Numbered from the stretch's first letter, positions 25,601-41,078 are shown. The stretch: DNA of 64,000 bases from Chitinispirillaceae bacterium (GCA_016930275.1 JAFGHA010000111.1:19360-83359), one strand, 5' to 3'. Notes: generated by a model not told the origin, from the sequence alone. Numbers and translations: made by a program.

Positions 25601-26680
25601 ATGACTATTTCAATGAAAATCGCCGTTTTTCTTTGCATACTACTGTCCTCATTGACTTACGGACAAATAAAACGCGGAAGAAATGAGGGAACGTTCAATA
25701 TACCTGCATCGAACGTTCTGGGTAACGGCAATATCATTGTTTCAGCGGCGTTCGCAGGCAGCGCGGCCCCTTCAGGCATCCGCCTCGATCCCGGAGTGTA
25801 TCTGAACGTGGGTATCGCCGATATCATGCAACTTTCAGGAAAAACCTCCTTTACCAATTTCCGTACCCTCGGCACTACCGAAGGGCATTTCCAGCTTACC
25901 CTGCCGGGAAACGACCATTTGCGTTTTTTCGGAATCGCCGCATCGGGAGACCTGTATCTCTCAACTGAAATGGACACCTTGAGCGGTGCCGCGACCTCCG
26001 GGCGACCGGAATACCACGCGTATATCCGCCCGTCAATCATTGCCGATCTCGACTGGATCGCGAAAAATAAATCACTGCCGATGAAAACCTATGCCATGTT
26101 CAGTATGGCCGACAACCCCGATCTGCTCTACCTGTACTCACAGCTTTCCTTCCGCCTGGGAGCGGAACTGAAGCTCAACAAAAACAGCTATTCCATTGAT
26201 TTCGGTGCCGGTTTCTACAAGGAACTCCAACGAAAAGAGACCGCATACACCGGCGACGACACGTACCGTCAGCAGCGTTTCTGGATAGAGCCGGCCGTCC
26301 GGTATCGTCTTTTCGACCGCTACAGCCTTCTCGGTGCCGTACGCATTCTCCTTCTTCAACGCGTCAAGTCTGAACGTCCCTTAGAACCGACGTATCTGAG
26401 AATCTCGGCAGCTCTGGACGTACCGCTGCTGTTCAGGGAAACGAATACCGAAGCCATCCGCACCATGATCTTCGTCGAAAAACATAAACAGGTTCAACCG
26501 AACGCCATTGATGCATCGGTAAAAAAGGGAGTCAGTCTCGAATCGGTGTCGGACCTGGATTTAGAAGGGCTGAATCTTTCGACTCAGGAAGAGGAATCGG
26601 AAGAGGAAGTACTGAAACGTCGAGAGGAAATACAGAAGAAAATGGAAGAGATAGAACGTCTTCTGGAGGATCTTGAATAA
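25601..26680 (+). CDS. Exported outer-membrane beta-barrel-like protein (paralogue A)
   Basis: Signal peptide MTISMKIAVFLCILLSSLTYGQ; RGRNEGTFNIPASNVLGNGNIIVSAAF; beta-rich body; Glu/Arg-rich coiled C-terminal tail. Confidence 0.6.
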   Translation: MTISMKIAVFLCILLSSLTYGQIKRGRNEGTFNIPASNVLGNGNIIVSAAFAGSAAPSGIRLDPGVYLNVGIADIMQLSGKTSFTNFRTLGTTEGHFQLTLPGNDHLRFFGIAASGDLYLSTEMDTLSGAATSGRPEYHAYIRPSIIADLDWIAKNKSLPMKTYAMFSMADNPDLLYLYSQLSFRLGAELKLNKNSYSIDFGAGFYKELQRKETAYTGDDTYRQQRFWIEPAVRYRLFDRYSLLGAVRILLLQRVKSERPLEPTYLRISAALDVPLLFRETNTEAIRTMIFVEKHKQVQPNAIDASVKKGVSLESVSDLDLEGLNLSTQEEESEEEVLKRREEIQKKMEEIERLLEDLE

Positions 26681-27897
26681 TGAACGCATTATCTGCCGGT
26701 GTATCTATTTGTATCACCCTGCTGACGGTGCAGATAGTTTATCCTCAGCAGAACCAGCGAAGAAACCGCGGTGAGACATTCTATCAGTGTCAGAATTCCA
26801 ACACACCCGGCAAGGGAAATATCTGGGTTTCGCTTCGTGCGGTAGGACACCTCTGGGATGATGCACCGATCTCCCTTTCCGAGCAGGAGAATCAGTCAAC
26901 GGATCAGTCTCCTCGCCGCTGGATATCTAATGTACGGGCGTTCCCGGAAATAATGCTTCAGGCGGGGATACTCGATTTTCTCTCCATCAATGCCGAATCC
27001 CGGGTGCTTTCCTATGGTTTTACTCCGGGATATTTCGGAGGCGGTATCAAAGCAACCTGGCCGAACAATCAGGAGCTGCGGCTGCACGGAGTCGGGTTGT
27101 CGCTCCAGTACCGTTACCAGATGCGGGAATCGGCACCCAGTCTCGGGGGCTATATCGGATTTATGCCCGAAGGATTCGTGGTAAAAGGAAGCAATATTGA
27201 AACCAGAGTACACTACGAACTTGATCTGCTGCCGCGTCTGACCATACTTCCCATACGCCTGCTCGCATCGACGGGATTCCGTGTTCCGTTCCGGCGCAGA
27301 AACCTATCCCAGTTGCTTACCGAAGCGGCAGTCGTTTACAGCGGGCACGGATTTGACTTTTTCGCGCAATACTCACTCGAGTCATTCGCCAACCTTTTTC
27401 ACCCGATTGAGGTGTCTCAACCGGAAAAGCGGTTTCTGGTCTGGTTTTCCGAAAATCCGATGTACGCGACACTGGGAGGGAATGTCCGGTACGACAACGG
27501 GATCACGCTTTCTCTCGCCGTCCCCATTTTGCTCAGTGTCAATCAGGGATCACGCATGCGTCGGGAGGATCTGGTTGAATTACATCGCAACGAATCTCCC
27601 GGTCTCTTCACGGAGGAAAAAGAACGGAATATCGTTGATCCGTTCGACCCCTGGTTTGTCAAATGGAAAGTCGCCGGCACCCTAACGTTTCCCCTCCGTT
27701 TCAAAATGACCGGTACTGAATTGATGCGGAATTATCTGCTGCTCAAAAACCGCAGGCAGGAGAAGAAAATCGATATCGATAACCGGATTCAGCTCAAAGA
27801 GGAATCTCCACAGGAGCAAGAGAAACAACAGGAAGAGGAAGACGCGAATCGCCGACTTGAAGAAATCAGAAAAAAAAGAGAAAAAGCACTGAAATAA
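26680..27897 (+). CDS. Exported outer-membrane beta-barrel-like protein (paralogue B)
   Basis: Signal peptide; RRNRGETFYQCQNSNTPGKGNIWVSLRA parallels paralogue A; same architecture with a Glu/Lys-rich C-terminal tail. Confidence 0.6.
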   Translation: MNALSAGVSICITLLTVQIVYPQQNQRRNRGETFYQCQNSNTPGKGNIWVSLRAVGHLWDDAPISLSEQENQSTDQSPRRWISNVRAFPEIMLQAGILDFLSINAESRVLSYGFTPGYFGGGIKATWPNNQELRLHGVGLSLQYRYQMRESAPSLGGYIGFMPEGFVVKGSNIETRVHYELDLLPRLTILPIRLLASTGFRVPFRRRNLSQLLTEAAVVYSGHGFDFFAQYSLESFANLFHPIEVSQPEKRFLVWFSENPMYATLGGNVRYDNGITLSLAVPILLSVNQGSRMRREDLVELHRNESPGLFTEEKERNIVDPFDPWFVKWKVAGTLTFPLRFKMTGTELMRNYLLLKNRRQEKKIDIDNRIQLKEESPQEQEKQQEEEDANRRLEEIRKKREKALK

Positions 27898-27916: not shown

Positions 27917-30900
27917 ATGAACCATCGTCCCGACAGCATTCATACCACCTTAACGGTTGCAGCAGTAACCTTACTTCTACTGCTGCCGCTGCATGATTGC
28001 CTCGAGGCGAAAAAACAAGAGACTGATTACTGGACCGCCAAAGAAAACCTTACTCTTCGCCTGGGTGCGGAATGGCATAAAATCGGTGTTCTACGCAAGG
28101 AATCAGCCGCAGTGGGTGATGTTATCAACGCCATCCGTATGTTTGAACTCTATCCGCCGGAGTTGACCGGATTTGATGACGGCAAGCTGGTGGCATTCGA
28201 TAAATCGATTGAAATACTGGAAAAACGAAATCAGCGAATCCGGGATAAAATCAACGGATTCAAGGCACCACTCGGTGACGCCATCGCCATCCTTCGCGAA
28301 ATGGTCACCGGAGAACCGGTGGAGAGTATGTTCGAAACGCTTGAAAAAGGCGACCTCAAACGGATTACGACAATGCTTTCGGTCAAGCATGACATCGATA
28401 CTCTCTGGCAGCGGGTCGATTCGCTCCTGAACGGAACAATGGCCGCAATCGGCATGCCGCCGCGGGAGGAAAAAGAAAATCCGATGGAAAATGATTTTTT
28501 CACCATACTTAAGGCGAACCTCGGCCTGCAATCCGAAACCTATTACGAGCGGCTCGGACAGATTGAATCATTCATCATCACCAAAGCGAACCCAGAACAG
28601 ATCACCCAGATAAAGCGTATCGAACAACATCGCATACGTGAGTATCTTTCCGCCGGACAACCGGCACTGGCCCGGCGAAAAACACTCGATGCAATCTCTC
28701 TGCTATCCGGGAAAACGGATCATTCCGACTTCATCATGCTTCTTGTCAGGGCTGAATTCATGGATGGAAACTATCAGGAAGCGCTGAGTACGCTCGACAA
28801 ACTCCCGGAAACGAAGCCTTACCGGGAGTTCCGTACACGATACCGTCTGCAAAGTCTCTATGCACTGCATGACTATCAGACCATTATCAGGGACACCTCA
28901 CGGATCACCATCGAGGACTATCATGGGGCTCCCCGGAATCTTATCCTTTGGATACTCATCGAAAGTGCACTCGCTGAAGGAGCATACGATGAGATCATTC
29001 GGAGGGCGGCATATATCGAAAAAGGGAAACCTTTCAGCCTTCATGTCATGCATGCACTTGCACGCAGTTATCTTGCTCGCAATGATGATTCCACGGCGCT
29101 ATCGATACTTGAACAGGCGCAACGGTACAAAACCACGACTGATGACGACCGTACTGCACTTAAGAAAATCAATATAGCGGTGGCACAACTCTACTACGAA
29201 CTGGGTAACTACGACAAATCAATCGAGCGGTTCTACGAACTGCTCAACGAACCGGACCTCTTTGAGCAGGCACTGTTCGGAATCGCATGGTGCTATCTGC
29301 AATCGGGACGATATGAAAAAGCTGAAACCGCTTTACGCAAAATCATCAATCAGGCGCCCGAAACGTCACTCGGTGCCGAGGGTATTCTGGTACTGGCGCG
29401 TCGTTATCTGCAGAAAGCGGAATTCGCCTGGAAAAAACACACGTATATCGACCGGGAAAAATACCGTCTCAGAGCGCTGATCATCAAACTCGACAAACGT
29501 CTCGCCTCCGACAGTGCCTCAGAGCGGTCGATCACCATACGTAACGCCCGTATGGAAACGGCCAGCCTGTTGACAAAAGTTGAAGGTGAAAAAATCGCCG
29601 ACTATGCAACGATTTCCTCTTACTACGATAATATTGACCGGCTCTGTTCATTCATCACCTCCCATTACTACACCGGAACGTTTCAGGAAGCCAGCTTCTC
29701 AAAGAAACGGGAAACAATACTCGGCATCATCGATTCCATCCAGCTGGAAATCGGACAGAAACAGCAGAGAGGCACTCCAGAGCTGCAGGTTTCAAATGCG
29801 CGACAGGAAAGATTGAAAATCAAGTCAGTGGTCGATAAAACCAATATTTTTTCAACGATCTGCCTTATCGACCGGTACCGGTGGGAACGTGCCTTCATCG
29901 ACTGGCGGAAAAACACGCTCAGGAAAAACGCTGCAAACGGCAGCGATACCGCCTTCGCCAACCGTCGCACCCTCAAGGAAACCATCGACGCAGTGTTGCT
30001 CAGAGAGGACTCATTGCAGCAGTATTACTCCGGAACACTGCAGAACAATATCAGCCGGCTACTCGAAGCGAACATTGACAGTTCCGACGCCTGCTATCTC
30101 AGCTATCAGTTGGGGGAACTGTATTATCATTCGGAAAACACCGCTTATGCCAGGGCGTACGACACCTATGAGAAAAAAGTACAGCACTTTGAAAAGGTCA
30201 TAAGCGAATTCCGTAACGGTACTGGAGATAAAATTCCACATCAGCCGGCTCCGCCGGTTCTCGACCATCGCCGCAGCATGGATATGTACCGAAGGGCAAT
30301 GAAAGCGCAACCCGATTCACCGTTCAGAGCAGCAGCGGAATACAGTCTTGCCTGGTGTTACAACGACCTCGCCCGGTTCGACAGCGCCTATACGCATATG
30401 CATACGGTCGCAACACAATTTCCTGAACATCCGCATGCTCCTCAGGCGTGGATGTTCTGCGGTGAATTCCATTTCGATAAAACTAATCTCAAGGATGCAC
30501 TTGCAGCTTTTTACGCGGTCATGAAATACCCTGAAAGCGAATGGTTCGATGAAGCACTCTATAAAGTCGCATGGACGCAATACCGGCTGTCAAATCCCGA
30601 AAAAGCCATCAGTTCGTTTCTCGCGCTGGTCGACCTTGGCGGCGGAAAGTTCGGACACGCACTCCTCGAAAAAGAATCAATGGATTACATCGCCATCAGT
30701 TTCAGTGAAACAGATGCCACCGGTCAGAAGGGACTCACCCGTGCGGCAGCATTTGCCCGCAAACTAGGCGATCCGGAACGGGGTTGCCAGATTCTCCACC
30801 GCCTTGCGCAGGTATTTCGCGATCAGGGACGCAACGACATGGCGAAAAAAACCTTTAATCACATCCTCTCGAACTACCCGGCCTACCGGCAGAATCCTAC

Positions 30901-31369
30901 TGTCGAAGCGGAACTGCTCGCGGTACTCGAACGCGACGTCAATACCGAAACATCAATCAGTCAGAAGTATGAGTATTTCAAGAAATACAACAGCCACAGT
31001 AAATGGGCGGAACATCAGTCGGACTCAATACGAATCCGGGCGGACAGTACCGCCGCAAAAATGCTTTACGATGCAGCGATCAGCTATCATCAGCTCGCGC
31101 TGCAGAAAAACAACGATTCACTATATCATCAGGCGATTGCATCGTATACCGACTACATCAACCATTATCCCCGTTCGCCTTTAGCGAACGAATGTCATTA
31201 CAACCTCGCGGAAATTCAATTTTCGACTGGTAATTACCGTGAGGCTGCGGAAGAGTACATCGCAGTGTCCAAGCGTTATCCGGACAGTAAATACAAGGAA
31301 ACTGCGGCCTGGAATGCCATCGTCGCGTCTCAGAATCTGCTCAAGCTTGAGACCGGCGATAGCCGGTAG
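27917..31369 (+). CDS. Large exported TPR-repeat protein (1150 aa)
   Basis: N-terminal signal; many TPR-like units, e.g. YYELGNYDKSIERFYELLNEPDLFEQALFGIAWCYLQSGRYEKAETALRKIINQAPE and ECHYNLAEIQFSTGNYREAAEEYIAVSKRYPDSKYKETAAWNAI. Confidence 0.88.
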   Translation: MNHRPDSIHTTLTVAAVTLLLLLPLHDCLEAKKQETDYWTAKENLTLRLGAEWHKIGVLRKESAAVGDVINAIRMFELYPPELTGFDDGKLVAFDKSIEILEKRNQRIRDKINGFKAPLGDAIAILREMVTGEPVESMFETLEKGDLKRITTMLSVKHDIDTLWQRVDSLLNGTMAAIGMPPREEKENPMENDFFTILKANLGLQSETYYERLGQIESFIITKANPEQITQIKRIEQHRIREYLSAGQPALARRKTLDAISLLSGKTDHSDFIMLLVRAEFMDGNYQEALSTLDKLPETKPYREFRTRYRLQSLYALHDYQTIIRDTSRITIEDYHGAPRNLILWILIESALAEGAYDEIIRRAAYIEKGKPFSLHVMHALARSYLARNDDSTALSILEQAQRYKTTTDDDRTALKKINIAVAQLYYELGNYDKSIERFYELLNEPDLFEQALFGIAWCYLQSGRYEKAETALRKIINQAPETSLGAEGILVLARRYLQKAEFAWKKHTYIDREKYRLRALIIKLDKRLASDSASERSITIRNARMETASLLTKVEGEKIADYATISSYYDNIDRLCSFITSHYYTGTFQEASFSKKRETILGIIDSIQLEIGQKQQRGTPELQVSNARQERLKIKSVVDKTNIFSTICLIDRYRWERAFIDWRKNTLRKNAANGSDTAFANRRTLKETIDAVLLREDSLQQYYSGTLQNNISRLLEANIDSSDACYLSYQLGELYYHSENTAYARAYDTYEKKVQHFEKVISEFRNGTGDKIPHQPAPPVLDHRRSMDMYRRAMKAQPDSPFRAAAEYSLAWCYNDLARFDSAYTHMHTVATQFPEHPHAPQAWMFCGEFHFDKTNLKDALAAFYAVMKYPESEWFDEALYKVAWTQYRLSNPEKAISSFLALVDLGGGKFGHALLEKESMDYIAISFSETDATGQKGLTRAAAFARKLGDPERGCQILHRLAQVFRDQGRNDMAKKTFNHILSNYPAYRQNPTVEAELLAVLERDVNTETSISQKYEYFKKYNSHSKWAEHQSDSIRIRADSTAAKMLYDAAISYHQLALQKNNDSLYHQAIASYTDYINHYPRSPLANECHYNLAEIQFSTGNYREAAEEYIAVSKRYPDSKYKETAAWNAIVASQNLLKLETGDSR

Positions 31370-31380
31370 GATATATCACG

Positions 31381-34371
31381 ATGCACATCACCACTTCCGA
31401 TCTATTCTGCCGAAACATTCGCCGGGCATTGCCGGTACTGGTGGTCATGATCCTGTTATCGGCAGGTTGCGCGGGAAAGAAAACCGTCTCCGATACCGTC
31501 TCCGGCGGAACATCACAGAAACCCGCTTCGGAAGAACACACGCCCGCGAATGATACCGCAGCCCACACTGCCGATACACCACATGCAGATTCCGGATTGT
31601 CACCTGCAACACGGTTACTGATAAGCGCCTGCAACAATTATCTTTCCGTCAATCCGGACAATCAGAAAACACCGGAAGTGCTGACGATCAAGGCATCGCT
31701 GTATTTCAATAATAGACGATTCGATTCCTCCCGGACGGTGTATGAAACGATTCTTGGAAAATACCCGGAAAGTAACCACGCATTCGAATCGATACGAATG
31801 ATCGCCCAATCGTTTTATGAGGAAAAACGGTTTGATGAGGCAGGTACCTGGTACAAAAAGCTCAGCGAAGCGACGCCGGAAGGTGCCGACAAAACGGAAG
31901 CCATCGCCCGTATAGCCGAATCGATCTTCAGGATGGCGGAGCTGTTCGAAACGCAGAGCAGATTCAAAGATGCGGCGGAACAGTATGAACGGGTTGCCAT
32001 AGAATATCCCGACACGCGAATCGCCGATGTGGCTCTCTTCAATGCGGGGGTAGCCTATGAAAAACAGGCGGAATGGTCACGTGCCATTCTCGTTTTTCAG
32101 CGGCTCCTCACCAAATATCCCGATTCAAAACTGCTCCCTAAAACTTCATTCCGCATTGCCAAGAGCCACGAAAAACTTCTGCAGTGGGATCTTGCCGCCG
32201 AAACCTATCTGCGACTTGCCGCCAACTATCCTTCGCATGAACTGACACCGTCGGCCCTCTACAACGCGGGTTTCTGTTTCGAAAACAGCGGAAAAAACCG
32301 TGAGGCAGCCGCCACCTTTGAAAAGATGGTACAACTCTTTCCACAGTCGGAAGATGCCGCCGATGTGTTGTTCCGGGCCGGTGAACTCTACGGAAAAGAA
32401 AAGGACTGGGATGCGGTAAGCAGAGTCACCCGGATCTTCACCGACCGGTTCGGAAACGATCAGAGTCGAGCCATTCAGGCACTCTGCATGAACGGTATAG
32501 CCTTGTATATGCGGAACCGGAATGATGAAGCGATTGTGCAGTTGACTAACGCCGCTGCCACCTTCAAAAAAATGAAAAATCCCGGTGAGATGAATGCTTA
32601 TTATGCGGCGAAAGCACTCTTTACCGTCGCCGAAATAAATCATACCGCCATGAGTGCCGTCACATTGGGTACCCCCCGCAAGCGTTACAAAAAGCAGCTC
32701 TCCCAAAAATCGGATCTGCTCGATAAAACCGTTGACGCCTATGTGAAGGTCGTCGCATTCAACATTCAGGACTGGACCACGCGTGCAATCTACCAGATCG
32801 GTCAGGTCTACGAGGATTTCGCGCTCGGTATCTTCAGCCAGGACCGACCGTCGGGACTCTCCATCGACCAAAGGATCGCCTTTGAACTCGGGATTGCCGA
32901 AGCCGTCGAAAAATATTTCATCGATAAAGCACTCCCGTTTCATGAACGGAACGTCAAACTCGGTATCAAGCAGAACATCGAAGACAAATACATTCTTCAG
33001 TCCCGTCAGAAACTCGCCTATCTCCCCTCGATCGCCGCCGAAAATTACCTGGCTCTGGTCGAGATAACCAAAACTTCGCAACAGCGGGAGCAGCTGGACG
33101 GATTCGCACTGATCGCCCGCAAACTGCAGCTCTTCCAGAAAATCGCACCGTTTCAGGAACGTGCGATCGCCCTTTTTCTCCGCTGTCTCGAGCTGGGAAC
33201 CACCTACCAGGAATTGGATGATTTTTATAAAAAAGCAAGTGAAGCAATCACCGGCATATCATTCAACGTCGGAGAAACCTATGCAGATGTAGTGAAAATC
33301 GCACGTGACGCTCCCATTCCCGGAGGATTTGACGACTACGAACGGTTTGTCTACAAATCCAAACTGCTCAAGCAGATTGCGGGATATGAGGATCAGGCCC
33401 TCGAAAACTATCTGAAAACCATTAAAATCGCCGAAGCCTATAAACTTGATGATCAGAGCGTCAAGGAAGCCCGCGAGCGAATTGCCGAATTACTGTTCAA
33501 TCGGGGCAGATGTTACGACCTGCTCTGTATCAATGCCTTCTCCCGTCCTCCCTATCCCGCCGGTATCAGCGAAGCGGAGAAAGAAGAATACCGGGCCCGG
33601 TTCGAAGAGATCGGTTTACGTTACCAGGAGCAGGCCTTTGACATCTACAAATATGCGCTGAGTCTGGCCGAACAATCGTATGCGACCGGCAAGTACATCA
33701 CGCACGCTTACATTCGACTCTATCAGAATTATCCGGAAGAATATGGATCAAAAGAAGAAAAAATGACTCAGACGGCAATCAGTTCGGGATCACAGTGGCT
33801 GGTCCGGGCTGACTCGGCAAGCAATTGGAATTCCCTTAACTACAACGATTCGGGATGGAATAAGGCTCAGCGTGCGGCAGTCACCACACAAACCATGGAA
33901 GGATTCCCGGGAAACATCCCCATTCCCATGTGGTTCGGCAGTGGAAACCCCGACAGTGCCGCAACGTATACGCCGAATTCGACGGTATACTTCCGGCGCT
34001 CGTTCACCACCGATCAGATGCCGCACAAAGCCATGTTCTATCTGGCGGCAAACGGTTTAATAGACCTGTACATCAACGGTGATTTTCTCGGCTCGCACGC
34101 TTTTCTGCCGGATGAACAGAAAACCGCCGCAACCTATAATCTTATGGGCAAAATTCGTACCGGTACGAATGTTATTGCCGTCAAGGCCAGGTGTAATGAA
34201 AATCCCCATGCACTCTATCCCCTGCTGCTGCTGACGGTGGGAACCGATGTTCCTCTTCCGAAACCACCGGGTTTCACCGAGGCAATGGCTCCGGAAGCTG
34301 CCCGGGTTGACAACTATGTTTTTCCATCGATTAAAAATTTCACTATTGAACAGTCGGAGACCAGCCGATGA
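31381..34371 (+). CDS. Large TPR lipoprotein with a C-terminal galactose-binding-like domain
   Basis: Lipobox LLSAGC; TPR/YbgF-like repeats (ADVALFNAGVAYEKQAEWSRAILVFQRLLTKYPDSKLLPKTSFRIAKSHEKL); C-terminal NWNSLNYNDSGWNKAQ...VYFRRSFTT...FYLAANGLIDLYINGDFLGS...GTNVIAVKA. Confidence 0.82.
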   Translation: MHITTSDLFCRNIRRALPVLVVMILLSAGCAGKKTVSDTVSGGTSQKPASEEHTPANDTAAHTADTPHADSGLSPATRLLISACNNYLSVNPDNQKTPEVLTIKASLYFNNRRFDSSRTVYETILGKYPESNHAFESIRMIAQSFYEEKRFDEAGTWYKKLSEATPEGADKTEAIARIAESIFRMAELFETQSRFKDAAEQYERVAIEYPDTRIADVALFNAGVAYEKQAEWSRAILVFQRLLTKYPDSKLLPKTSFRIAKSHEKLLQWDLAAETYLRLAANYPSHELTPSALYNAGFCFENSGKNREAAATFEKMVQLFPQSEDAADVLFRAGELYGKEKDWDAVSRVTRIFTDRFGNDQSRAIQALCMNGIALYMRNRNDEAIVQLTNAAATFKKMKNPGEMNAYYAAKALFTVAEINHTAMSAVTLGTPRKRYKKQLSQKSDLLDKTVDAYVKVVAFNIQDWTTRAIYQIGQVYEDFALGIFSQDRPSGLSIDQRIAFELGIAEAVEKYFIDKALPFHERNVKLGIKQNIEDKYILQSRQKLAYLPSIAAENYLALVEITKTSQQREQLDGFALIARKLQLFQKIAPFQERAIALFLRCLELGTTYQELDDFYKKASEAITGISFNVGETYADVVKIARDAPIPGGFDDYERFVYKSKLLKQIAGYEDQALENYLKTIKIAEAYKLDDQSVKEARERIAELLFNRGRCYDLLCINAFSRPPYPAGISEAEKEEYRARFEEIGLRYQEQAFDIYKYALSLAEQSYATGKYITHAYIRLYQNYPEEYGSKEEKMTQTAISSGSQWLVRADSASNWNSLNYNDSGWNKAQRAAVTTQTMEGFPGNIPIPMWFGSGNPDSAATYTPNSTVYFRRSFTTDQMPHKAMFYLAANGLIDLYINGDFLGSHAFLPDEQKTAATYNLMGKIRTGTNVIAVKARCNENPHALYPLLLLTVGTDVPLPKPPGFTEAMAPEAARVDNYVFPSIKNFTIEQSETSR

Positions 34372-34706
34372 ATGCCACATTGTTCCGGATGGGTTATTGC
34401 ATACGACATGCGGTTATAATGCCCACTATCATATTCTCGATCTGCAGTGTATCGTTTTTTCCCGCCGTCACCGCCGCCACCCCCGCAGACTCGACTTCAA
34501 TCGCGGCTGCAGATCAAGGATACCGGATTGATCAACCCGGTACCATTACCTTTACTGTCGGAGTTAAAATAAGCGGAAAAGTTGAAAAACCCCAGGTTAT
34601 GATATTTCTGCCGAAAGAAAAAACCCAGTATCGTGAAGAAGTCATGAGTCGTTCTTTCATAGAAGAACTCTCACAACCGCTTCCCTTCACACCAATCACA
34701 GAATGA
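34368..34706 (+). CDS. Small exported hypothetical protein
   Basis: Overlaps the previous stop by ATGA; signal-like N-terminus; GTITFTVGVKISGKVEKPQVMIFLPKEKTQYREEV. Confidence 0.6.
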   Translation: MNATLFRMGYCIRHAVIMPTIIFSICSVSFFPAVTAATPADSTSIAAADQGYRIDQPGTITFTVGVKISGKVEKPQVMIFLPKEKTQYREEVMSRSFIEELSQPLPFTPITE

Positions 34707-34931: not shown

Positions 34932-35567
34932 TTGATGGACAGCGTCATACGTTTTTTCAAAGAGGGTGGAACCTGGATGTACCCGCTGATTGTCATTTCC
35001 GCTTTTGCATTCGCGGTGATTATTGAACGGCTTTTTTACTATTATATTCACTGCAGAATCAATGCCAAAGCGCTTCTGACACAGATTACACGACTTGTCC
35101 GGAACGGCGACGTTGAAAAAGCGCGGCAGCTCTGTGCCAAAACCAAAACCCCGCTCTCTTCGATTCTGGAATCGGCTCTCTGGCATTTTCAGCAGCAGGA
35201 GCCTGACCATGAAATTCAGAATGCCGTTGACGAAATCGCACTTCGGGAACTTCCGCGTATTCAGCGGCGGACCCATTATCTTTCACTCTTCGCCAACATC
35301 GCGACCCTTCTCGGTCTACTCGGTACCATTTTCGGACTCCAGCAGGCATTCGGTGCACTTTCAGCGGCCGATCCATCGCAAAAAGCAACGGTACTCGCAC
35401 GAGGCATCGCCATTGCTATGAATACCACCGCTCTGGGACTGATCGTTGCGGTTCCCTGCATGATTTTCTTTTCGATTCTCGGCTCCAAGGCGAATACCAT
35501 TATAGAAGAAATCGATGAAAGTTCGGTACGACTCCTTAACTTTCTCTACGCACAGCGTCGATCGTAA
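34932..35567 (+). CDS. MotA/TolQ/ExbB proton channel family protein
   Basis: MYPLIVISAFAFAVIIERLFYYY, ANIATLLGLLGTIFGLQQAFGAL, AMNTTALGLIVAVPCMIFFSILGSKAN. Confidence 0.94.
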   Translation: MMDSVIRFFKEGGTWMYPLIVISAFAFAVIIERLFYYYIHCRINAKALLTQITRLVRNGDVEKARQLCAKTKTPLSSILESALWHFQQQEPDHEIQNAVDEIALRELPRIQRRTHYLSLFANIATLLGLLGTIFGLQQAFGALSAADPSQKATVLARGIAIAMNTTALGLIVAVPCMIFFSILGSKANTIIEEIDESSVRLLNFLYAQRRS

Positions 35568-35624
35568 CCGGATACCGGAACACGGTCGGAAACAACCACC
35601 GTTGAAGGAACCAGATAGATCACC

Positions 35625-36098
35625 ATGGCATTTCCAGCAACCAAACGGGCAAAAAAAGCGACATCAAACGACATCGAGTTGATCGATCTCGATGTCACTC
35701 CCGTCATGAACCTGTTCATGGTACTCATACCGTTTCTTGTGTCAATGGCAGTGTTTACACATATCGCCGCGATTGATTTCTCACTGCCTCCCGCTCAGGA
35801 GGAAGGTGCCGATCCCGGCGACAGCAAGGAACTCGACATCTCGATTGTCGTAACAACAAACGGGTTCAGGATCGTCGGTACCGGGAAAAAACTCGATCTT
35901 ATCCCTCGTGTAAAAGGACAATACCAGTACGAGCAGCTACGCGTTCTTCTTAAAGCGATAAAATTCGAGTACCCGTCCCAGAAGAGTGTCGTTCTCGTCC
36001 TTGAATCGGATATTCTGTATGACGACATAATAAAATTCATGGACATCTGCCGGGATTCACAATTTCCCGACATCGGTCTTTCGGGAGAGATCGGATGA
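35625..36098 (+). CDS. ExbD/TolR-like protein with Asn at the canonical TM Asp position
   Basis: IDLDVTPVMNLFMVLIPFLVSMAVFTHIAAIDFSLP aligns with ExbD INVTPFIDVMLVLLIIFMVAAPLATVDVKVNLP; periplasmic domain follows. Confidence 0.82.
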   Translation: MAFPATKRAKKATSNDIELIDLDVTPVMNLFMVLIPFLVSMAVFTHIAAIDFSLPPAQEEGADPGDSKELDISIVVTTNGFRIVGTGKKLDLIPRVKGQYQYEQLRVLLKAIKFEYPSQKSVVLVLESDILYDDIIKFMDICRDSQFPDIGLSGEIG

Positions 36099-36421
36099 GC
36101 TTCAAGCTAAAAATCAGAAAAACGAACGCCGCGGTTATCCTCGCGCTTTCAGGAGATATCACCGGCAACAGTGTCGGAAAGATATCCGCCAAACTCGAAA
36201 GTATCCAGAAAATGTACCAGGGAACCATTGCCATCGATCTGAGTGAAACGACCTTCATTGACAGCCATGGTCTGGGAGTATTCGTCTTTTTTTACCGCAG
36301 GCTGTCTGAAGAAAAGCGGAAACTGGTGTTTCTCAATCCGTCGGAATTCATTCTCGATCTTTTTTCCGGATCAAATCTGGTGAAAATATTTTCCATTGTT
36401 AACAGCGAAGAAGAGTTATGA
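36095..36421 (+). CDS. STAS domain protein (anti-sigma factor antagonist-like)
   Basis: AVILALSGDITGNSVGKISAKLESIQKMYQGTIAIDLSETTFIDSHGLGVFVFFYRRL is a clear STAS motif; ATGA overlaps on both sides. Confidence 0.9.
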   Translation: MSFKLKIRKTNAAVILALSGDITGNSVGKISAKLESIQKMYQGTIAIDLSETTFIDSHGLGVFVFFYRRLSEEKRKLVFLNPSEFILDLFSGSNLVKIFSIVNSEEEL

Positions 36422-36936
36422 GTTTTCCTGCGTCAAAATCTCCGCAGAAACAGGTACGGAAGACACGCGGCAACCGGAAAATAAAAACCTTCAAGCCGCA
36501 ACTCACCTCGCTTGTTGACGTGATGACCATTCTCCTGATTTATCTCCTTCAGAGTTTCTCTTCCGAAGGAGATATCGTCACCGTTCATAAAGACCTCATT
36601 CTTCCGGAGTCGACGGCAAAAAAATCACCCGAACTGCGTGTTACCATCACCGTCAACAATACCTTCATTCTTGCGGAGGACATCCGGGTGGCATCGGTAG
36701 ACGAGGTACTCACTTCAGAAGAACTGGTGATTCCGGGTCTCTACGATTGGCTGCAGCAGCGCCGGGAAGCCACCGAAAAGATCGAACGTTACTCGACAAA
36801 AACTAAATTCAAGGGTGAGGTTACCATTCACGGCGACAAGCGGATCCGTTTCCGTTTACTGAAAAAAATAATGTATACCTGCGGACAGCAGGGATACAAC
36901 AATTTCTCTCTGGCAGTGAGGCGACGTGAAGGATGA
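36418..36936 (+). CDS. ExbD/TolR-like protein with canonical Asp
   Basis: FKPQLTSLVDVMTILLIYLLQSFSSEGDIV...LILPES; C-terminal RLLKKIMYTCGQQGYNNFSLAV. Confidence 0.84.
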   Translation: MSFPASKSPQKQVRKTRGNRKIKTFKPQLTSLVDVMTILLIYLLQSFSSEGDIVTVHKDLILPESTAKKSPELRVTITVNNTFILAEDIRVASVDEVLTSEELVIPGLYDWLQQRREATEKIERYSTKTKFKGEVTIHGDKRIRFRLLKKIMYTCGQQGYNNFSLAVRRREG

Positions 36937-37994
36937 GCATGGTTCCGCAACAACACCGGGTGATTGTCGCCGGTCAGTATGCCTCAACGCCGCTTGATCC
37001 GGCACTCATTCGTTCGGTTCGGAGCAAAAATGTTTCGATAATCGACCGGAGTTTTCTGATTATCGCTACCCTGTCAATTGTTATTCATTTCGTTTTCATT
37101 TTTCTCGTGAAAGTATATGTGGTACCCCCACAGCAGGCAACCGTTATCGAGGAGGTCCCCGAAAGGTTCGCGAAGCTTATCATCGAAAAACCGTTACCCA
37201 AAACCGAAACGACAAAAAAGGCAACCGAAAAAACCAGCGAGACGGCAAAAACCGCAATTGAAAAAACCGACAGTAAACCTGCACCCACCGGTCCCGTAAC
37301 CACCCAGCAACGGACAAAGGCTCGTAAATCAGTCGATGCTCGGGTAGCCCGTGTCGAACAGAAAATCAGAACCGTGGGTGTTCTCGGCATGCTCACCGGT
37401 GTCGGAACGACGGCCAAAGGCCCGTCGGTCGTTGATGTACTGGGTACACTCAAAGACCGCAAGGAACATAAGGTCGATCTTGAGAGTGCTCTTGATAAAA
37501 TGACCGGCCTGCAGAAAACCAAGCAGGTCGATCTGCTTGACCGCAAACTGGTGAAAAGTAAAGATGTGGCGATTTCACACAAAGAGGATATCGACGACCT
37601 GCTTGCGAACGTCGGTGGTGCGAAAACCGTTGACCTGGCGAAAAAAGGTTCTTTTATAATTCAGAAACCGCAAAGCATCGAAGGTGCGGCTTCCTCCAAT
37701 GCCAAACGTGACAATGACGCAATCAGCGCGATTGTTTCGTCACACAAAACAAGTATCCGGATGAGCTACGAACGGTACCTCAAACGGGAACCGACGCTCG
37801 CCGGTAAAATCACCGTCAGGTTTACTATAGCTGCATCGGGAAGTGTCGCGATGGTAACTATTGTGGAAAACACGACGGGAAACACGGAACTTGAAAAAGA
37901 AATAATGAGAAAAATCAGGATGTGGCGTTTTGAAACCATTACCGATGGTGATGTAACCGTAACCTATCCGTTCGTTTTCGCGCCTGCCGGATAG
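36933..37994 (+). CDS. TonB-like protein with AgmX/PglI-type C-terminal domain
   Basis: N-terminal TM (LIIATLSIVIHFVFIFLVKVYV), charged linker, C-terminal VSSHKTSIRMSYERYLKREPTLAGKITVRFTIAASGSVAMVTIVENTTGNTELEKEIMRKIRMWRFE. Confidence 0.85.
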   Translation: MSMVPQQHRVIVAGQYASTPLDPALIRSVRSKNVSIIDRSFLIIATLSIVIHFVFIFLVKVYVVPPQQATVIEEVPERFAKLIIEKPLPKTETTKKATEKTSETAKTAIEKTDSKPAPTGPVTTQQRTKARKSVDARVARVEQKIRTVGVLGMLTGVGTTAKGPSVVDVLGTLKDRKEHKVDLESALDKMTGLQKTKQVDLLDRKLVKSKDVAISHKEDIDDLLANVGGAKTVDLAKKGSFIIQKPQSIEGAASSNAKRDNDAISAIVSSHKTSIRMSYERYLKREPTLAGKITVRFTIAASGSVAMVTIVENTTGNTELEKEIMRKIRMWRFETITDGDVTVTYPFVFAPAG

Positions 37995-38016: not shown

Positions 38017-38919
38017 ATGCTTCTGCACCGATTCACCTTTTCATTCACGGGTATACTGCTTATGGTCGGTACACTTGCCGCGGCGATCATAAAAAACGGC
38101 GACGTCATCGACATTCAGGTGGTCGGTCATCCCGAGTTCTCTGGTCATTATACGGTTGACGATCACGGTTTTGTGGAGCATCCACTGCTTGCCGATGAAT
38201 CAATTGTCAACGTTAGTACCGTTGAACTCATGAATGACCTCACGTTCCGGCTCGCACGTCATTTTGACAATCCGCTTGTACTTGTTTCGATTATCAATAA
38301 ACCGGAAATTACCGTAACGGTCCTCGGCCAGGTGATGGCACCCGGACCGATTACCACCTTCAAAGGAGCCACGATACAGGAGGTGCTAAAAAAAGCAGGA
38401 GGACCGACTTCCGCCGGTGCCGATCTGTCACGTATCAAAATCATTCACAGCAACTCCTCCGATGCACCCGAACTTTTCGATATGGAATTATTCCTCTCAA
38501 AAGGGAATGTCGAAGACCTCCCCCGACTTCAGGCCGACGACATCGTTATCGTCCTGGCACTCGAAAAGTCAAAAAAAGTCAAGGTAATCGGAGCGGTCCA
38601 GAAACCGGGTTTGTTCACTCTGGAAGAAAAAATGAATCTTTTTGAGGTCATCTATCTTGCGGGTGGTCCTACCGAAAAGTCGGATTTTTCCCGGATCCGC
38701 CGCTTCACCCGGCAGGAAAACGGCAAGGTCACCGAAGAGATCATCGACATGCAGGGATACATCGACAAAGGTCGCATGGAAGATATTCCCGACGTGCTCG
38801 AAGGAGACGTCATCATCGTGTACAATCGGTGGTTCGACTGGAGAACGGTCCTGACGGTACTGAACAATACCCTGCTCTTCATCGTGACGATCCAGGCTTT
38901 CGCGGGAATATTCAACTGA
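38017..38919 (+). CDS. Polysaccharide export protein (Wza-like, Poly_export/SLBB)
   Basis: IKNGDVIDIQVVGHPEFSGHYTVDDHGFVEHPLLAD; SLBB repeats TVTVLGQVMAPGPITTFKGATIQEVLKKAGGPT and KVKVIGAVQKPGLFTLEEKMNLFEVIYLAGG. Confidence 0.92.
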   Translation: MLLHRFTFSFTGILLMVGTLAAAIIKNGDVIDIQVVGHPEFSGHYTVDDHGFVEHPLLADESIVNVSTVELMNDLTFRLARHFDNPLVLVSIINKPEITVTVLGQVMAPGPITTFKGATIQEVLKKAGGPTSAGADLSRIKIIHSNSSDAPELFDMELFLSKGNVEDLPRLQADDIVIVLALEKSKKVKVIGAVQKPGLFTLEEKMNLFEVIYLAGGPTEKSDFSRIRRFTRQENGKVTEEIIDMQGYIDKGRMEDIPDVLEGDVIIVYNRWFDWRTVLTVLNNTLLFIVTIQAFAGIFN

Positions 38920-41078
38920 TGGCTTTGACTAGCAACATCCGCATACAGAACCGGACGGGAATTCGTGATTACATCGCCGTTCTCATCCGCCGGTGGCTGG
39001 TCATCATCATTTCATTTCTCAGTGTACTCGCATCGACGTTCTTTTACGCACGCAGAATTCCCGATTCATTTGAATCCTACTCCACACTCGTCATCGAGGA
39101 ACAGACGACCGTCGTCAATCAGATGGTCGGCAGTGCCTCCCGCTCACTCTCATTCTTCGAGGGTATTCTCAACAGTCGAACCTTTCAACAGGCACTTATC
39201 GACAGTATCGGCACCGATCAGTTCCTGCGCGACTTACCGAAATACACCCATGAGGACATTCTCTCTTTCATCAATTCGAACCTTTCTCTCCGGAAGACCT
39301 CCTACGCCTCGTTTCTCCGGCTTGTCGCACGTGCTCCGACAAAAGAGCTCGCCTATGCCATGGCCACTATCGGAACGACTCTGTTCCGGGCCCGCTGTCT
39401 CGAAGTGACAAATGAGGAATCACGCCGCGGCGTCTCGGAAATCGAAAAACAGCTCCTGCTGATCAGAAAGACCCTAGAGCAGGCGGAATATGATTACCGC
39501 AGTTTCATCGATACGACCGGACAGATTGAAGAAGGTACGACCCCCGAGCTTAAAACCCTCACCGAGGCGTATGCATCAAGTCTGGCGCAGCTCGGCATCA
39601 AGGAGGCCGACCTCTCCGCGGAAAAGAAGCAACTTGCCCGACTCGAATTAAAAATCGCCCCGGAAAACAAATCCCGCTCACCGGAATACCTCCAGCTGCG
39701 GTCCAGGTTGCGCGAACTGGAGAAAGAAAGGCTCCGTCTGGAGGGACTGGGGATACGGTTTTCCGGCATATCAACCGTCGACCGTGAGATTCAGGGCATC
39801 GAACAGCAGTTGCTCAAATTCAAAGAAACGAAAAACACGCAAGTTGATCCGGCCACGATGCATCAGTGGCAGGAGTTGCGCAAATCGGTTATTGCCAAAG
39901 AAGGTGACCTTGAGCTCTTCAAACGACGCATGGAATCGTACGAAAAAGCAATCGGCAGCTACAAGAAAGGAAATCCCGATATTCTGTCCCAGTCACTTGA
40001 ACTGCTGCGACTGAAACGTTCAAAAGAGGTATATGAGAATCTTTATACACTCCTTCTTGAAAAGGCCGAAGAAGAACGGATTAAAAGTGCTTCAAGCAAC
40101 ATAGGTGTGAAAATCGTCGACCTCGCGGCCATGCCGACCAGTCCCGTCCCGAAAAATCAGACGCAACTCTACCTCGCCGGAATCCTCCTCGGGCTGCTGC
40201 TGGGCCTCGGCCTTGCCTTTCTGATCGAATTCAACGACACGACCATCAAATCCAACGATGATATCGAGCGCTACGTCGAACTGCCGGTACTGGGTACGAT
40301 ACCGCACATCATCCACAAGAAAAATGATATCGCCATCCGGCGACGCTCTTCAAAATCACATAAAGGAGTCACCGTAACACAATACCCCCGCCAGGTGTTC
40401 AATTTCGATGGTGACGATTCGGTAAGCACCGAAGCCTACCGGTCACTGCGGACCAATATTCTGTTCACCAGTCCCGACAAACCGCTGCAGGTACTCGCCG
40501 TCACCAGCGCAGGTCCCTCTGAGGGAAAGTCCCTTACGATCTCCAACCTGGCCCTCGCCTATGCGCAGATGGGAAAACGCACACTGCTCATCGACACCGA
40601 CCTGCGTCGTCCGGTGCTGCACCATATCTTTAATGTCAAGCGTGAACCCGGATTCACCGATCTGTTCATTGCACACCCCGATTTCGACCGTTGTATTCGC
40701 AAAGATATCAAACCGAATCTTTCACTCCTGAGCGCGGGGATTTTCTCCCCCAATCCCGCCGAACTGCTCGGGTCCCATAAACTCGAACAGCTGCTCGAAT
40801 ACTTCAGGACAAATTATGATATGATCTTTTTTGACACTCCGCCGATTGTGGCAGTGACCGATGCGACCCTGCTCGGTAAAAAAATCGACGGTATGCTCAT
40901 TGTCGCAAAATCCCACCATATCGACCGTGACATACTGCTGCGGGCGGTCAACACCTTGAGAAATGTCGGCGTCAATGTTGCCGGAGCAGTGCTCAACGAC
41001 ATAAATTTATCGCACCGGTATTCAAGTTACGGCTATTACAAATACTATTATCATTATTATAAAACCAAAAAAGACTGA
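38919..41078 (+). CDS. Polysaccharide biosynthesis BY-kinase (Wzc-like)
   Basis: Wzz-like N-terminus, coiled coil, Walker A SAGPSEGKSLTISNLA, Walker A' LLIDTDLRRP, Walker B MIFFDTPP, Tyr-rich tail YSSYGYYKYYYHYYKTKKD. ATG at 38919 overlaps the previous stop. Confidence 0.94.
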   Translation: MALTSNIRIQNRTGIRDYIAVLIRRWLVIIISFLSVLASTFFYARRIPDSFESYSTLVIEEQTTVVNQMVGSASRSLSFFEGILNSRTFQQALIDSIGTDQFLRDLPKYTHEDILSFINSNLSLRKTSYASFLRLVARAPTKELAYAMATIGTTLFRARCLEVTNEESRRGVSEIEKQLLLIRKTLEQAEYDYRSFIDTTGQIEEGTTPELKTLTEAYASSLAQLGIKEADLSAEKKQLARLELKIAPENKSRSPEYLQLRSRLRELEKERLRLEGLGIRFSGISTVDREIQGIEQQLLKFKETKNTQVDPATMHQWQELRKSVIAKEGDLELFKRRMESYEKAIGSYKKGNPDILSQSLELLRLKRSKEVYENLYTLLLEKAEEERIKSASSNIGVKIVDLAAMPTSPVPKNQTQLYLAGILLGLLLGLGLAFLIEFNDTTIKSNDDIERYVELPVLGTIPHIIHKKNDIAIRRRSSKSHKGVTVTQYPRQVFNFDGDDSVSTEAYRSLRTNILFTSPDKPLQVLAVTSAGPSEGKSLTISNLALAYAQMGKRTLLIDTDLRRPVLHHIFNVKREPGFTDLFIAHPDFDRCIRKDIKPNLSLLSAGIFSPNPAELLGSHKLEQLLEYFRTNYDMIFFDTPPIVAVTDATLLGKKIDGMLIVAKSHHIDRDILLRAVNTLRNVGVNVAGAVLNDINLSHRYSSYGYYKYYYHYYKTKKD

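Follow-up and report, generated by a model that had tools for sequence, protein, structure and literature searches.

Can a motor of the ExbB/ExbD type work when only one of its two axle proteins keeps the Asp that carries the proton? In this family five ring subunits surround two axle helices, the transmembrane (TM) Asp is essential, and the two Asp occupy different environments (PMC12905483, PMC12215075, PMC9389320); in current rotary models the two Asp alternate, at 36 degrees per proton (PMC12905483). The question is raised by a five-gene module in a stretch of 64,000 nucleotides (the window) from a Chitinispirillaceae bacterium of the Fibrobacterota (GCA_016930275.1 JAFGHA010000111.1:19360-83359), which encodes two unlike ExbD proteins, ExbD-1 with Asn at the Asp position and ExbD-2 with Asp. 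Judged from the sequences collected here, this lopsided Asn/Asp (N/D) pairing is widespread in at least three bacterial groups.

Module structure

A preliminary description of the window had placed genes for an ExbB, ExbD-1, a STAS protein, ExbD-2 and an AgmX/TonB-like protein in a row, and gene calls combined with Pfam searches found all five, on the plus strand like the other window genes given with coordinates below. The ExbB/TolQ-like ring protein (34935..35567) matched PF01618 with 93.8 bits (cut-off 22.9) and was aligned to PDB chain 5sv0_B; the gene lies where it had been reported, but its start does not, since the likelier ATG, at 34935, comes one codon after the TTG at 34932. It is followed by ExbD-1, the putative non-protonatable axle (35625..36098; PF02472, 42.6 bits), a single-domain STAS protein of the anti-sigma-antagonist type (36095..36421; PF01740, 53.0 bits), ExbD-2, the putative proton-carrying axle (36418..36936; PF02472, 51.1 bits), and a TonB-like, predicted periplasm-spanning arm of the AgmX/PglI/GltG type (36933..37994). 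Overlaps of the ATGA kind were confirmed at 36095, 36418 and 36933.

ExbD-1 reads DVTPVMN29LFMVLIPFL, with N29 encoded by AAC (35709-35711) at the TM Asp position and a TM proline, P36, at 35730-35732, and ExbD-2 reads LTSLVD34VMTILL, with D34 encoded by GAC (36517-36519); both residues are those that the preliminary description had read. The idea that another acidic residue of the ExbD-1 TM makes up for the lost Asp was rejected: NLFMVLIPFLVSMAVF contains none, and the Asp/Asn immediately before the TM is not conserved. The gene order of the module recurs in 12 other assemblies, and a comparison of the two closest relatives gave omega values of 0.065-0.095 for all four core genes, indicating strong purifying selection, so that the module is not a chance arrangement.

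Residues at the Asp position

Related loci, together with whole genomes of Fibrobacterota, Myxococcota and Desulfobacterota, supplied the tandem ExbB-ExbD-ExbD modules; duplicates were removed, and the residues at the Asp position were read from profile alignments. The second ExbD carries Asp in all 154 distinct modules (154/154). The first is non-Asp in 123 of the 154 (112 Asn, six Ser, three Ala, one Gly and one Cys) and Asp in 31, a class ratio that does not equal the natural frequency, the search having been seeded mostly with Asn-type sequences. In these alignments the constancy of Asp in the second ExbD and the near-constancy of Asn in the first remain informative despite the seeding.

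The split is conserved in relatives, with Asn in the ExbD-1 of every homologue of the module, and the identical residue in all of them rules out an assembly error or a strain oddity as its source. The Asn persists where whole-protein identity drops to ~28-36%, and the TM is the best conserved part of ExbD-1. Further modules with the N/D split are present in the same genome.

In two Fibrobacter-type genomes (loci L119 and L120) the Asp position of ExbD-1 is taken by Ala or Gly, and their modules are probably related to FSU_2400-2403 of Fibrobacter succinogenes. Five Myxococcota loci (L156, L160, L161, L170 and L171) hold paired divergent D/D ExbB-ExbD-ExbD modules, in which the ExbB position equivalent to Escherichia coli E176 is Glu except for one His. 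The Myxococcota loci are not labelled AglRQS here because none of them matched the NCBIfam AglR, AglQ or AglS equivalogs.

Associated marks in ExbD-1 and ExbB

Two further positions go with the class of the module. A TM Pro at +7 from the lost Asp was found in 112 of the 123 non-Asp ExbD-1 proteins (the remaining 11 have Ser, Thr or, once, Val), in one of the 31 Asp ExbD-1 proteins and in 0 of the 154 ExbD-2 proteins. The second mark lies in the ring. The position of E. coli ExbB E176, assigned by alignment to PDB chain 5sv0_B (E. coli ExbB), is non-Glu in 118 of the 123 modules with a non-Asp ExbD-1 versus two of the 31 D/D modules, and the window ExbB has I160 (codon 35412-35414) at this place. 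Both ring Thr of E. coli ExbB, T148 and T181, align to Thr in the window ExbB, T165 corresponding to T181.

On a tree of the concatenated proteins, reconstructed with the trait residues masked, the residue at ExbB position 176 shifts in the same direction in ~2.5 of 3 independent pairs on supported branches, and in the opposite direction in none. A Fisher test (p = 6e-24) was set aside as proof of coupled evolution and is descriptive only, the tree containing just 3-4 class changes.

These marks bear on the suggestion that the Asn of ExbD-1 is a product of neutral decay after gene duplication and has no mechanistic meaning. The minority of ExbD-1 proteins with Ser, Ala, Gly or Cys would fit such decay, but the exact Asn in 112/123 and the TM Pro in 112/123, across three phyla, together with an omega of 0.07, make it very improbable.

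Proposed partnership of the two axle proteins

The two ExbD genes are adjacent in the modules, and their junctions are usually coupled through short overlaps. A sub-type seen in Desulfobacterota as well as in this genome and other Fibrobacterota has a second ExbB that continues at its end into ExbD-1. In 6/6 such modules the fused ExbD carries Asn, Gly or Ser and is followed by an unfused ExbD with Asp. The fusions are ~440 amino acids (aa) long and are flanked by an unfused ExbB on one side and an unfused Asp ExbD on the other (contig C129 of this genome [L034, 1653-2975], L108, L110, L111, L222 and L223). These natural ExbB::ExbD-1 fusions point to a place in the ring for the non-Asp ExbD. 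A heterodimer with one active site is favoured by the residue pattern (first ExbD non-Asp in 123 of 154 modules, second always Asp), with further help from the fusions.

The alternative is that ExbD-2, which retains the canonical Asp, forms a normal two-Asp homodimeric axle, and that ExbD-1 is a separate proton-inactive plug, inhibitor or peptidoglycan anchor, placed beside the ring or competing for it. Some Asn-type ExbD-1 genes without an adjacent partner and some longer Fibrobacter-type ExbD-1 proteins (261-299 aa) speak for such a separate role. The translational coupling and adjacency of ExbD-1 to ExbD-2, the fusions that put ExbD-1 in the ring, and the strong conservation of its TM, which fits a pore helix, speak against it, and we regard it as rather unlikely.

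An embedded STAS gene

The preliminary description had made synteny of the STAS gene in relatives a test of its reading, and synteny was found in part. The gene lies between both ExbDs in 18 of the 21 Fibrobacterota genomes with the module, two of these in separate families of the phylum, but the other three (loci L039, L047 and L055, two of them from one family) lack it and keep the split. The STAS-less operons L194 and L201, examined at full length, have all other genes in place, N/D included. In the tandem modules of Myxococcota and Desulfobacterota no STAS gene was seen between the ExbDs. STAS as the cause of the split was therefore rejected, the split persisting in the three STAS-less modules and in other phyla, and for the same reason the asymmetric motor appears to be independent of STAS. 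From its distribution the gene is an old but dispensable, accessory addition.

Its type is clear from the matches to TIGR00377 (NCBIfam; 60.6 bits, cut-off 53.45) and to PDB entries 1sbo and 1th8 (TM1442 and SpoIIAA). The D56-S57 motif is invariant, S57 (codon 36263-36265) being present in 12/12 aligned sequences and lined up with FMDSSGLG of SpoIIAA; it matches the position of Ser58, which we take to be the phosphorylation site of SpoIIAA. No RsbW/SpoIIAB-type kinase gene was found in the operon, and the HATPase_c_2 matches of the genome are all on other contigs. Clustered STAS and RsbW-type kinase domains form a complete-looking partner-switch locus on contig C215 (5932-7520) of the same genome. 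An FPA(S/T)K cytoplasmic motif opens both ExbDs (window 35625-35660 and 36418-36445) and is a possible docking site; it is largely kept in the STAS-less locus L047 and lost in the STAS-less locus L055.

Whether the protein acts on the motor at all is a finely balanced matter. It may well be an ordinary anti-sigma-factor antagonist of gene expression, or an unrelated hitch-hiker, instead of a motor part or switch: it is of the SpoIIAA/TM1442 type, three operons of otherwise similar content lack it, its sequence changes faster than those of the motor genes, and the genome as a whole has 23 STAS matches and eight RsbW-type kinase matches above cut-off. This reading sits less well with an operon that has neither kinase nor sigma factor, with the overlap coupling of STAS to both ExbDs in nearly all STAS-bearing loci, and with a position kept across distant families of the phylum. 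Our guess, preferred only narrowly over the ordinary sigma-factor regulator, is that it docks on the complex and regulates it in a phospho-dependent manner; that STAS is the on/off switch of the motor, as first proposed, is a plausible guess.

Neighbouring genes

Two predicted outer-membrane beta-barrels with signal peptides stand at the head of the operon, as judged from synteny, AlphaFold2 models and Foldseek. The first (25601..26680, 359 aa), the first conserved gene of the operon, was modelled with 12 long strands at a predicted local distance difference test (pLDDT) score of 70 and matched the outer-membrane barrels FapF, NanC and OmpG; the second (26680..27897, 405 aa; pLDDT 72) matched FapF, porins and Tsx. 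With moderate confidence, the two products are predicted to be adjacent outer-membrane beta-barrels with C-terminal helices and without a Pfam family.

They are followed by a large secreted tetratricopeptide repeat (TPR) protein (27917..31369) and a TPR lipoprotein with the lipobox LLSAGC at its N-terminus (31381..34371), both assigned from Pfam TPR matches and synteny. The C-terminal part of the lipoprotein shows a weak match to the alpha-L-rhamnosidase N-terminal (jelly-roll) domain and is possibly a sugar-binding end. A small conserved secreted protein (34368..34706), syntenic and ~35-81% identical in relatives, had no Pfam or NCBIfam match above cut-off. Downstream of the module lie a syntenic Wza-like polysaccharide export protein with Poly_export and SLBB domains (38017..38919; Pfam) and a syntenic Wzc-like chain-length/tyrosine kinase (38829..41078), whose true start is probably downstream of the listed GTG; glycosyltransferases come after Wzc in the conserved operon.

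The TonB-like arm bears on the possibility that the module imports nutrients in the manner of TonB systems, a role proposed for FSU_2400-2403 of F. succinogenes. There the ExbB, two ExbD and TonB proteins are up-regulated on cellulose, and cellodextrin import was proposed (PMC6851124); the gene order is the same and from the same phylum, and equivalence to the Fibrobacter modules collected here is our inference. The arm does contain a TonB_C domain (Pfam, 28.1 bits), but it falls in the AgmX/GltG group, matching the NCBIfam AgmX/PglI C-terminal model NF033768 with 96.2 bits (cut-off 40). It did not reach the full NCBIfam equivalog models for GltG and GltJ. Between 25601 and 41078 no 22-strand, plugged TonB-dependent receptor was found in the operon, the barrel models having ~12-14 strands and no plug, and the neighbours are TPR proteins and Wza/Wzc. 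An importer is accordingly improbable.

Discussion

The system encoded in the window appears to be built like the Agl-Glt/Nfs core, known from gliding and the spore coat of Myxococcus xanthus, and probably works in a similar way; the AglRQS part of that core consists of one TolQ and two TolR homologues (PMC3169522), and the core was reported by Luciano and others in scattered bacteria, including one Fibrobacteres (PMC3169522). The likeness extends to the AgmX/GltG-type arm, the TPR proteins, the outer-membrane barrels and the link to an exported polysaccharide. It is not, however, the AglRQS motor as described, because AglQ and AglS, the two axle proteins of AglRQS, were both described with the TM Asp; their pairing was left open there (PMC9389320). 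In Myxococcus the D28N substitution in AglQ abolishes the motor (PMC3858216). Here ExbD-1 has Asn and a TM Pro, and the ExbB lacks the TM3 Glu. A further difference from Agl-Glt/Nfs is that a single operon holds all of these genes along with Wza/Wzc and STAS.

E. coli ExbBD-TonB and TolQRA share the PF01618 and PF02472 families, the conserved ring Thr and the TM Asp of ExbD-2, but they differ in that the window has two unlike ExbDs of which one lacks Asp, a residue other than Glu at the place of E176, and an AgmX-type arm instead of TonB/TolA. The tonB-exbB-exbD1-exbD2 cluster of Xanthomonas campestris, compared by gene order, also has tandem exbD genes after one exbB, yet its exbD2 is not needed for iron uptake, and the cluster belongs to an iron-uptake and signalling context (PMC3551730). 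SpoIIAA, RsbV and TM1442 have the same fold and D-S motif as the STAS protein, the gene of which here lies between two ExbDs with no neighbouring kinase. No paper on a non-Asp/Asp ExbD pairing as a class, or on an embedded STAS subunit, which had been thought undescribed, was found in searchable open-access text; this is weak evidence, many subscription papers and preprints lying outside that search. Literature text searches for MotB one-site mutants and for E176 gave nothing usable.

From the conserved split, the Pro and ExbB signatures, the fusions and the operon structure, all read directly from the genomes, we infer the following machine. The ring would consist of five ExbB, and the two-helix axle of one copy each of ExbD-1 and ExbD-2. 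ExbD-2 alone would bear a protonatable Asp, and the Asn of ExbD-1, with the nearby TM Pro, would act as a fixed mimic of the protonated Asp and as a structural half. Because only one axle helix could load and unload a proton, one Asp would give, by the rotary models cited above, about one proton per 72 degrees (five steps per turn), or some other asymmetric stroke. The AgmX-like arm would transmit force to the TPR proteins and the two outer-membrane barrels. Surface polysaccharide from the linked Wza/Wzc and glycosyltransferases would probably be moved or threaded; such movement is suggested because these genes are linked to the module, as Agl-Nfs transports the exported Exo spore-coat polymer (PMC3858216). 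STAS would be an optional cytoplasmic regulator, probably docking on the complex depending on phosphorylation of Ser57.

Several points weigh against this explanation. The N-versus-D class switches only ~3-4 times on the tree, giving 3 independent pairs on supported branches, and a sign test on 3 pairs cannot reach 0.05; because of these few changes, the Glu and Pro associations are consistent but come from few independent events. Five N/D modules retain Glu at the ExbB 176 position, and among the collected loci only 10 of 21 ordinary single-ExbD systems have Glu there, so that loss of the Glu is not diagnostic. Five Asn-type ExbD-1 genes (L159, L162, L177, L185 and L106) have no recognisable adjacent ExbB or ExbD-2; their partners may be elsewhere in the genome. 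The heterodimer, its stoichiometry and the proton flux are proposed from sequence, the docking of STAS from gene position only, and the polysaccharide link from gene neighbourhood only.

With these points counted, we give a probability of about 0.5 to the whole explanation, in which the operon specifies a machine of the Agl-Glt/Nfs kind that spans the envelope, is driven by protons and has an asymmetric axle. At similarly even odds, the modules would represent a widespread, undescribed class of 5:2 ion motor, with an Asp helix paired with an Asn/TM-Pro helix in a ring without the TM3 Glu and with a single protonation site, to which STAS would have been added as a phospho-switch in Fibrobacterota; the two-Asp cycle would then not be a general requirement.

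What sets the locus apart would thus be its class of asymmetric axle, together with the signatures in TM Pro and ExbB, rather than the STAS gene. In the models of ExbBD, TolQR and MotAB two equivalent Asp alternate, a premise for which there is no in vitro assay (PMC12905483). A class that offers one axle Asp is a ready-made mutant experiment, which would make this standing question about the motor directly testable. The distinct subunits permit the two axle positions to be labelled, ordered and measured separately, unlike those of a homodimer, and the natural ExbB::ExbD fusions provide a handle on stoichiometry. If the one-Asp motor rotates, an alternating two-site cycle would not be essential; if it does not, the same parts would be used in another way.

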